Positions 16,221 to 17,671 of a stretch of 32,511 nt of DNA are shown piece by piece (the first letter of the stretch is position 1; every line of letters begins with the position of its first letter). Under the pieces are notes generated by a model. It saw only the letters and a program-made list of their open reading frames with translations, was not told the DNA's origin and searched no databases. The translations under genes and the position numbers were made by a program. The stretch is taken from the NCBI GenBank assembly GCA_018240985.1, contig JAFEER010000209.1, positions 1-32,511 on the forward strand. The letters run 5' to 3'. The stretch comes from Pseudomonadota bacterium. Its GTDB lineage: Bacteria; Pseudomonadota; Gammaproteobacteria; Burkholderiales; Burkholderiaceae_C.

Positions 16221-16249
16221 CTCGAAGCCAATGTGGCGCTGTTCATGAA

Positions 16250-16590
16250 TGGTAGGCCGTGTTGGACTTGAACCAACGACCAAAGGATTCAGGTTGGCGT
16301 AGGTTTCCCCACTCCCTGGACTATCTCATCACCCTCGCCGCGGATTGCTACGCGCGTTAGGGTGCCGGGCGCTCTCGGGGTGCTTATCGGATTGGCTCCT
16401 CACACCCTAGTCTCTGCACCTTCTCGCCTACCGGTTCTTCAACCTGCCTTCGGCGAGCTTGGCTCAGGATTGCCGGGCCATTGACTGACTGACGGTTTCC
16501 CTGAGTTCACCCGGTTTTTCCATTGCCGCTTTCGCGGCAAGGTCACCATTTCGATGAGTCCTCTGCTCTAACCAACTGAGCTAACGGCCC
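16250..16590 (-). tRNA. tRNA-Ile(CAU), interrupted by a group I intron
   Basis: On the - strand the 5' exon is 16590-16554 (37 nt, starting GGGCCGTTAGCTCAG and ending GACTCAT) and the 3' exon is 16289-16250 (40 nt, starting AATCCTTTGG and ending CCTACCA). Joined, they give a 77-nt tRNA with encoded CCA, the acceptor pair GGGCCGU/ACGGCCU, anticodon stem GAGGA/UCCUU and loop CUCAUAA. The CAU anticodon in this context is that of tRNA-Ile2, whose C34 is modified to lysidine by TilS to read AUA; the sequence resembles E. coli tRNA-Ile2 and not initiator or elongator tRNA-Met. The 264-nt intron lies between positions 36 and 37. Standard tRNA searches that do not allow for group I introns would miss it. 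Confidence 0.93.
16290..16553 (-). ncRNA. Group I self-splicing intron in tRNA-Ile(CAU)
   Basis: A 264-nt intron with no reading frame. Recognised by conserved core segments on the - strand: CCTGAGCCAAGCTC (P4/P6 side), GGTGCAGAGACTAG (P7 5' strand) and ATAGTCCAGGGAGTGG (P7 3' strand into P9), close to the Azoarcus tRNA-Ile(CAU) intron (subgroup IC3) as I remember it. P1 pairs the exon end UCAU with an internal guide GUGA, giving a U-G pair at the 5' splice site. P2 is TTGCCGC-GAAA-GCGGCAA, P4 CTCAGG/CCTGAG, P6 CTCGCC/GGCGAG, and P9 GTGGG-GAAA-CCTAC. The last base is G, as required at a 3' splice site. The Azoarcus intron is about 205 nt, so this one has longer peripheral elements. Confidence 0.92.
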
Positions 16591-16656
16591 ATTCATAAAA
16601 CTACTTAACCCGACCAACCGAGCCAAGGCTCCTTGGTGCACAAGGCACAAGCGCGC

Positions 16657-16662
16657 ATTGTA
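16657..16662 (-). promoter_or_regulatory. Possible -10 box TACAAT for the tRNA-Ile precursor
   Basis: On the - strand, directly after the hrcA stop, TACAAT lies about 66 nt before the mature tRNA 5' end. No strong -35 hexamer is visible, and the GC-rich repeats between it and the tRNA (around GAGCCAAGGCTC, 16619-16630) are not a U-tailed terminator, so read-through from hrcA is also possible. Confidence 0.3.
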
Positions 16663-16666
16663 ATTG

Positions 16667-17671
16667 CTACTTATGGTGGCTCAGGGCGTTGGACACGAGT
16701 TTGGAGGTGATGTCCACGATCTGGATCATGCGGTCATAGGCCATGCGTGTGGGGCCGATGACGCCCAGCGTGCCCACCACCTGGCCATCAACCTCATAGG
16801 GCGCGCTGACCACAGACAGCTCCTCAAACGGCACGACCTGGCTTTCGCCGCCGATAAAGATGCGCACGCCTTCGGCGCGGCTGGAGATGTCGAGCAGGCG
16901 CAGAATCTGCGTCTTTTGCTCGAACAGGTCGAAGGCGCGGCGCAGGTGGCCCATGTCGCCAGAGAAATCGCTCACCGCCAGCAGGTTGCGCTCGCCCGAG
17001 AAGACCACCTCGTCCTGCGACTCCGACAGGGCCTGCGAGCCCACGTTCACCGCCGCCTGCATCAGCGTGGCAATCTCGCCGCGCAGCTTGTCCACCTCGC
17101 TCTTCAGCCGCTCGCGCACCTGCTCCATGGTCAGACCTGCGTAGTGCGCGTTGAGGAAGTTGGCTGTCTCCACCAGCTGCGACTGGGTGTAGTCGGCCTC
17201 GGTGAAAATGACGCGGTTTTGCACGTCGCCGTCGGGCGAGACGATGATCACCAGCACGCGCCGCTCGGACAGGCGCAGAAACTCGATATGGTGGAACACC
17301 GAGGCGCGCCGCGGCGCCATCACCACGCCCACGAATTGCGACAGGTTGGACAGCAGCTGCGCCGCGTTCGCTATCACCTTCTGCGGCTGCTCGGGCATGA
17401 GCTGCAGGGCCGGCAGCTGCTCTTGCTGCACCGTGAGCATGGTGTCGACAAACAGGCGATAGCCCTTGGCCGTGGGAATGCGGCCGGCGGAGGTGTGGGG
17501 GCTGGCAATCAGGCCCAGTTCCTCCAGATCTGCCATCACATTGCGTATGGTGGCAGGCGACAATTCAAGGCCCGACGCCCGCGACAAGGTTCTGGAGCCC
17601 ACTGGCTGCCCTTCGGCGATGTAGCGTTCCACCAGCGCCTTGAGTAACAACTTGGAGCGGTCATCAAGCAT
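16667..17671 (-). CDS. hrcA: Heat-inducible transcription repressor HrcA
   Basis: Repressor that binds CIRCE operators in front of groESL/dnaK operons and depends on GroEL for activity. 334 residues, usual length. The N-terminal winged helix ([20 protein letters not shown], then [20 protein letters not shown] and [19 protein letters not shown]) is highly characteristic. The GAF-like effector domain follows, with FIGGES and the C-terminal [15 protein letters not shown] motif. No CIRCE element (TTAGCACTC-N9-GAGTGCTAA) occurs here, so there is no sign of autoregulation through one. The ATG is 28 bp from the divergent nadK start and TAAAAT lies 6 nt before it. The split tRNA-Ile gene follows on the same strand. 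Confidence 0.96.

Follow-up and report, generated by a model that had tools for sequence, protein, structure and literature searches.

Introduction

Group I introns of bacterial tRNA genes are often located in the anticodon loop. One such intron, in the pre-tRNA-Ile(CAU) of Azoarcus BH72, was reportedly described by Reinhold-Hurek and Shub in 1992. It interrupts the same tRNA as the intron described here, which lies in a stretch of 32,511 nucleotides that was analysed as a whole (the window). We take the Azoarcus intron to share its splice position and to be ORF-less as well. It is also named in the accessible text of PMC3984707.

Transfer RNA genes are known as integration sites. According to the accessible parts of the Islander study (PMC4383910), tyrosine integrases use attB sites in tRNA genes, with anticodon-centred crossovers in 2083 of 3919, and a tDNA fragment in attP restores the split gene. 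The islands described below have the tyrosine integrase, the attB in a tRNA gene and the anticodon crossover in common with those islands; instead of a fragment that restores the gene, however, a whole foreign intron-bearing tRNA appears to replace it. The word 'intron' is absent from the main text of PMC4383910. Randau and Soell, as cited in the accessible parts of PMC4390854 and PMC3293823, hypothesized that disrupted tRNA genes resist integration. In this idea, as in the islands here, disruption of the gene hides a tRNA attachment site. Their proposal concerns protection of the host gene and is discussed for archaea, whereas in the present case it is the island-borne copy that is interrupted, by a presumably self-splicing intron. 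A similar order of parts was described for the Caldiarchaeum tRNA-Thr locus, where, according to PMC3293823, a 5' tRNA fragment is followed by a recombinase gene and then by an intron-bearing tRNA. The islands here likewise have a 5' fragment upstream of an intron-bearing tRNA, but the Caldiarchaeum introns are archaeal, lie at 24/25 and 45/46 and belong to a 1.8-kb element, not to an island in an anticodon loop. A literature search, made mostly among papers readable without subscription and judged by titles and the openings of abstracts, returned no description of an intron-masked replacement tRNA on islands.

Results

A tRNA-Ile2(CAU) gene is split by a group I intron

The two exons in the window (Table 1) join to a 77-nt CAU tRNA. 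ARAGORN folds the spliced sequence, with G-T wobbles in both the acceptor stem and the anticodon stem, while the split gene was absent from its default output for the window. The intron follows U36, directly after the anticodon. Searched with RF00028, the 264-nt intron scored 72.6 bits (gathering 50, E 8.5e-17). P1 is formed by UCAU at the exon end and GUGA in the intron, and the marks of a group I intron, a U.G at the 5' splice site, the guide pairing and a terminal G, are all present. The original prediction had read this locus as a tRNA-Ile(CAU) broken directly behind its anticodon by a group I intron with a GUGA guide and a final G; it was correct in each of these points and exact in its exon and intron coordinates, and the RF00028 search that it proposed as a check was positive.

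Table 1. Positions of the features around the split tRNA-Ile2 gene in the window
Feature	Position	Strand	Basis or remark
3' exon of tRNA-Ile2 with encoded CCA	16250..16289	-	40 nt
264-nt group I intron, P7.1-bearing type	16290..16553	-	RF00028 72.6 bits, covariation, tree
P7.1 hairpin between P7 5' strand and P3 3' strand	16378..16407	-	absent from the Azoarcus-type tRNA-Ile2 introns read
Internal guide GUGA, pairs with exon UCAU	16543..16546	-	invariant in 39/39 aligned tRNA-Ile2 introns
5' exon of tRNA-Ile2(CAU), ends with anticodon CAU (U36)	16554..16590	-	37 nt
19-nt remnant of island sequence preceding the replacement tRNA (GTTGAAGTTGTTTTATGAAT in island copies)	16591..16609	-	local score 15
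Scar: degenerated 5' portion of the resident tRNA-Ile2 gene	16610..16632	-	17/24 identical, resident register
TACAAT, -10-like box common to intact same-genus genes	16657..16662	-	gap-free alignment with L102
hrcA	16667..17671	-	Pfam HrcA 6e-67; synteny

The window's own genome (G000) is a draft of 4.04 Mb in 303 contigs that is 95% complete. It contains three other CAU tRNAs, which by our reading appear to be elongator-Met-like (C183), initiator-like (C180) and a copy within a tRNA array (C182). The split gene differs from all three, as expected of the AUA-reading tRNA-Ile2. The array on C182 (G000:C182:14039-16493, L049) is dense, includes the extra CAU tRNA and several low-scoring tRNAs, and is possibly part of a mobile element.

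A pattern for intact tRNA-Ile2 had zero matches in this draft, and the split gene is the only tRNA-Ile2 detected in it; the draft is incomplete, and some other isoacceptors are also missing from its tRNA list. Because no intact copy turned up in a 95%-complete draft, the cell probably depends on splicing of this tRNA. The original prediction had likewise considered splicing probably essential and had named an intact second tRNA-Ile(CAU) gene as the finding that would speak against it; none was found in the draft.

The intron belongs to a clade with a P7.1 hairpin

For covariation analysis, 39 different P7.1-type introns from tRNA-Ile2 genes were aligned. Across the 62 pairs proposed from P1 through P9, 96.3% of all cells are paired. 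Both-sided changes occur at 33 of the 62 pairs (shuffle mean 22.8), to which P7.1 contributes three pairs and the P7.1 inner helix two, and the covariation score is 0.358 compared to a shuffle mean of 0.145. Covariation in the aligned sequences thus supports the intron and its P3-P9 fold with the P7/P3 pseudoknot; the five P7 pairs are invariant in all 39 introns, so P7 itself shows no covariation.

The P7 5' strand and the P3 3' strand are separated by a 35-nt insert that contains the P7.1 hairpin. The insert measures 34-35 nt in 18 of the 19 loci of a set gathered by DNA similarity (L063-L081), L077 being unmatched by the regular expression. The Azoarcus-type tRNA-Ile2 introns L035-L038, which occupy the same tRNA site, lack it when inspected by eye. 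We take IA-type introns to carry P7.1/P7.2 between P7 and P3, and the name IA would presumably follow for the window intron.

A tree was built from 89 introns, a part of the known loci with tRNA-Asn and viral introns in limited number. It separates 23 Azoarcus-type introns (support 1.0 printed for this node) from 66 P7.1-type introns (0.85 after midpoint rooting), and the window intron groups among island-borne copies. Azoarcus-type and IC3 are working labels here, since the tree contains no named Azoarcus sequence. The original prediction had taken the intron for a longer relative of the Azoarcus intron. This kinship was rejected on account of the tree and the insert: all 23 Azoarcus-type introns fall in the other clade, and those read are devoid of the 35-nt P7.1 insert. 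The window intron, in a separate clade and with P7.1 present, therefore stands outside the IC3 (Azoarcus-type) group and differs from it in clade, P7.1 and its length of 264 nt, a comparison made through Azoarcus-type relatives and not through Azoarcus itself. In the window's own genome the RF00028 profile search gave one match at E <= 0.001; a DNA search added a second intron, of the Azoarcus type (G000:C293:19307-19506), which the profile search had missed.

Related introns also occur in phages. Four records of Klebsiella phages have matches to the 5' part of the locus. In two of these phages, which are both Alcyoneusvirus, an intron of the same type interrupts an unannotated tRNA-Ile2 (231 nt and 104 bits against RF00028 in Muenster). 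In Muenster (L107 2001-2311; similar in L108) this P7.1-type intron interrupts a tRNA-Ile2(CAU) within a tRNA array, and a gene annotated as HNH endonuclease follows shortly downstream. The phage intron included in the tree fell outside the group of the window intron and was therefore treated as a relative; a jumbo phage as source was rejected. A plasmid origin was also rejected, the two plasmid records having short matches confined to the tRNA exons. In the viral contigs L110, L112, L131 and L188, P7.1-type introns appear by eye to interrupt the 3' part of a tmRNA-like gene; around the intron of L110 the tmRNA-like sequence reads GACGCGGGTT ... CCCGCCACCTCC.

In relatives the intron-bearing tRNA sits at the end of an island

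In relatives, the intron-bearing tRNA-Ile2 sits just inside one end of an island that lies in the anticodon loop of a resident tRNA-Ile2. In several of them the 5' half of another tRNA-Ile2 is found between hrcA and the intron-bearing tRNA; this resident half ends at GGACTCATAATC and then runs into a conserved element end. Six islands, spanning 8.6-32.6 kb, were followed to their far end, and in all six the resident halves rejoin to an intact tRNA that is accepted by ARAGORN. The acceptor strands of the two halves are complementary in 7/7 pairs in five islands and in 6/7 in G119. The att direct repeats range from CTCATAA to ACTCATAATC, and the att core CTCATAA/TC is the very sequence that the intron splits. 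The rejoined halves show the empty site, whether or not the islands are active. By sequence, this is the architecture of an island integrated in a tRNA gene.

The resident 3' half follows 30,279 bp on in G420 and 26,213 bp on in G330. Both islands encode a 449-aa tyrosine integrase beside the right junction (Arm-DNA-bind_3 and Phage_integrase), and the G420 protein also matches a PHROG integrase. Genes for restriction and other kinds of defence are present in both islands: the G420 island carries a type I R-M system and a GmrSD-type enzyme, and that of G330 encodes AbiEii, a Lamassu-like LmuB and a type III methyltransferase accompanied by a ResIII protein. In G420 the resident tRNA clearly differs from its replacement. 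The other four islands, in G119 (32,587 bp), G384 (10,344 bp), G703 (8,587 bp) and G782 (20,962 bp), have Azoarcus-type introns in their replacement tRNA-Ile2. The G119 island contains ZorB, ZorC and ZorD genes and, near its left end, a gene for a 450-aa integrase (PHROG 1; without Pfam match). Among the ORFs of the G384 island no integrase was recognised by eye. Rejoining halves were seen in 6/6 islands, and of the four islands inspected for an integrase, G420, G330 and G119 contained one.

At loci where one end is seen, a half gene stands next to a whole gene, as would also arise from tandem duplication of the tRNA gene with decay of one copy and gain of an intron by the other. The six islands place the missing 3' half 8.6-32.6 kb away, with a complementary acceptor strand, and contradict this explanation there; we regard it as very improbable. 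No right half turned up for G187, G232, G130 or G741 within the stretches examined, and in G186 the best 3' match scored 18 (control 17) with the core read by eye.

Two further arrangements were noticed. In G005, a genome of the same genus as the window, an intact tRNA-Ile2 is accompanied by a separate 3' half 868 bp away (L104), which looks like the leftover right end of an earlier island. In G130 two tRNA-Ile2 5' halves with different element ends lie 225 bp apart (L348-L349), and an intron-bearing 5' exon is located 13 kb beyond them; this arrangement suggests nested islands. Another intron there is inserted after U33.

The window retains probable traces of an island

Upstream of the split gene, the window aligns gap-free to the same-genus genome G003 through the end of hrcA and the TACAAT box. 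Here the 17 of 24 bases that match the resident 5' half (16609 included) begin exactly at the resident start; one of 200,000 shuffles was as good. The 19-nt match to island sequence directly before the tRNA scored 15 versus 4-5 in four same-genus genomes. The acceptor sequence is GGGCCGT, as in the island-borne copies L064-L070, whereas the same-genus residents L101-L104 have GGGGCGT. The TACAAT box is probably the old promoter and would now serve the replacement tRNA.

The general relic scan gave the window a score of 11, under the threshold given below, so the scar is recognised by its position. Downstream in the window no resident 3' half was found (score 7, control 12), nor was an integrase among the nine ORFs run against Pfam. 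Of an island, the window thus holds the 5' scar and the replacement tRNA only. The best reading is that the window gene is a replacement tRNA left behind by an island. The original prediction had missed this point: the gene would not be a resident tRNA with an inserted intron, but a complete second, island-delivered tRNA that replaced the resident one.

The intron-bearing tRNA is shared between genera

A search of 398 genomes of the family with the intron gave matches at E <= 0.001 in 23, of which 18, the window's own genome included, had long matches (>150 bits). Seven of these 18 belong to other genera and are 90-97% identical over the full length. The intact tRNA-Ile2 pattern was present in at most 282 of the 398 genomes; such counts are upper bounds, since the pattern also fits some junctions, for example that of G017. 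It was unmatched in 17 of the 18 genomes with a long intron match; G330 had one match to this pattern. In the same-genus genomes G001, G003, G004 and G005 the intact pattern was found in 4/4 and the intron in 0/4. Compared with G333, the tract 16245-16606 (intron and tRNA) is 97.5% identical and hrcA 74.6%. These sequences indicate that the intron-bearing tRNA has moved between genera. Since hrcA adjoins tRNA-Ile2 in many genomes both with and without the intron, if not in every carrier, the site is a fixed chromosomal one in those lineages. The original prediction had pointed to the tRNA-Ile(CAU) loci of related genomes; the intron indeed recurs across genera, but the same-genus loci are intact and the gene appears island-derived, which changes the reading.

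The same data bear on two simpler explanations. An ORF-less intron could have entered the resident tRNA-Ile2 by homing with a borrowed endonuclease or by reverse splicing, with no island involved. The high identity across genera, the HNH gene annotated near the phage intron of the same type and the lack of an island in the window today would fit such mobility. The foreign acceptor stem, different from that of four same-genus residents, and the decayed resident 5' half with 19 nt of island sequence before the tRNA disfavour simple homing, as do the island copies in several genera, and we think it unlikely to be the explanation. The gene might also be a dead, unspliced pseudogene. With the core and the guide intact, the structure covarying and the intact pattern unmatched in nearly all genomes with a long intron match, we give this hardly any credence. 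We favour a replacement tRNA delivered by an island, whose intron would be spliced in the cell.

Relic halves accompany some other intron-bearing tRNAs

Loci were scanned for relics in the 1.5 kb upstream, a resident 5' half being counted from a score of 18 (reversed-sequence controls <= 13). The 45 unique tRNA-Ile2 intron loci comprised 40 of the P7.1 type and 5 of the Azoarcus type. Some sets of P7.1-type introns had been gathered with a pattern requiring the insert. A relic was found in 17 of the 45 loci versus 0 of 20 intact loci (maximum 13); that of L301 is doubtful because it continues into a 3' half. The remaining 28, including L261 with too little upstream sequence, had no relic at this threshold. 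An order-level search with an Azoarcus-type query gave 30 loci that were read, and the intron-bearing tRNA was resolved in 22 of them (the window's genome included). Six of these 22 had a relic half (score >= 23; controls <= 12): three at tRNA-Ile, with the previously found G119 among them, and three at tRNA-Leu(UAA), one printed as Phe by ARAGORN. At a tRNA-Arg(CCU) in G080 there is a 5' half, and what is likely the 3' half lies 5 kb further along (score 32 against a control of 15).

P7.1-type introns also split tRNA-Asn(GUU) genes (GCTGT|TAAC) in several phyla (L206, L208, L213, L214, L216, L219, as well as L225, L227, L229, L231, L234, L239 and others). Their guide GCAG matches the tRNA in at least 34 loci, a count that is not independent, because agreement with the guide helped to place the splice site. 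Relic-like halves were present in 3 of 48 tRNA-Asn loci among the matches listed and were partial or weak.

In a reverse test, two relic patterns were run against 309 genomes of the family, many of which were also among the 398 searched for the intron. Of 17 places matched, two were exons of intron-bearing genes and 15 were true junctions. An intron-bearing tRNA-Ile2 lay within 1.5 kb of nine junctions; among these L396 was counted by our own reading, with the intron after U33, where ARAGORN names the tRNA differently. Beyond one junction lay a CAU tRNA that has no intron and whose D arm is unusual (L408 1484-1754, G193). At the other five no replacement tRNA was found within 1.5 kb, in one case because the contig ends.

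These counts matter for the question whether the intron does anything for the island. Islands might carry a replacement tRNA in which the intron is a neutral passenger of the anticodon loop and offers no protection. Anticodon loops are a frequent place of bacterial tRNA group I introns, 28 of 45 carriers had no relic at threshold, and the L408 replacement does without an intron; moreover, the nine intron-bearing cases are not independent, as several share an intron lineage and some of the genomes had been found earlier through the intron itself. On the other hand, nine of the ten replacement tRNAs found through a relic carry an intron in a family where the intact pattern is common (282/398), and introns of two distinct clades occur in island-borne copies of the same tRNA. 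A neutral passenger seems to us somewhat less likely than not.

A second replacement in the same genome

Contig C293 of the window's genome contains a complete tRNA-Leu(CAA) that has an Azoarcus-type intron and is preceded, at a distance of about 0.2 kb, by a 5' half of tRNA-Leu(CAA) (G000:C293:18701-20000, L381). An intronless tRNA-Leu(CAA) was not among the tRNAs listed for the draft. TrbL, CagX, TrbC and type IV coupling-protein genes lie within about 12 kb beyond this tRNA, and because of these conjugation genes the element is probably conjugative. Its far end was not found within the contig.

Discussion

We consider it quite probable that the intron is a self-splicing group I intron in the replacement tRNA-Ile2 of an island and that the window gene descends from such a copy. 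In this reading, tyrosine recombination at the core CTCATAA/TC inserts the island into the anticodon loop of the resident tRNA-Ile2 and thereby splits that gene, while the island supplies a whole tRNA-Ile2 located some 0.2 kb in from one of its ends. In this copy the core would be broken in DNA (CTCAT|intron|AATC) and restored in RNA through splicing, so that the copy could serve the cell and should not act as attB for the same integrase. As the integrase acts at the anticodon loop, a replacement whose loop is uninterrupted would offer it another target within the island. Because the replacement is a whole gene, it need not match the resident one. In the window the island would have been lost, leaving behind its replacement tRNA joined to what is left of the resident gene. 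Against this explanation speak the lack of an island in the window, the window relic below threshold, the intronless replacement at L408 and the weak tRNA-Asn relics.

Loss of attB function in the intron-bearing copy is what the broken core suggests. Whether selection favoured the intron for hiding the integration site is a matter on which we are about evenly divided. The broader reading, that bacterial anticodon-loop group I introns are at least partly attB-hiding devices and that introns of different clades were recruited to this role in tRNA-Ile(CAU), has in our view an even chance of being right. Under it, intron-bearing tRNAs on bare chromosomes would often be island leftovers. The same role may apply to tRNA-Leu(UAA), tRNA-Leu(CAA) and tRNA-Arg(CCU).

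ARAGORN overlooks the split gene when run in its default mode, which may distort automatic counts both of islands and of tRNAs that read AUA. The proposed mechanism would offer a function and a vehicle for the ORF-less group I introns of bacterial tRNA genes, whose spread is hard to explain. It would also provide a route by which an island can target an essential, often single-copy gene across diverse hosts: break the gene, substitute a complete foreign copy, and let a self-splicing intron hide that copy from the island's own integrase.
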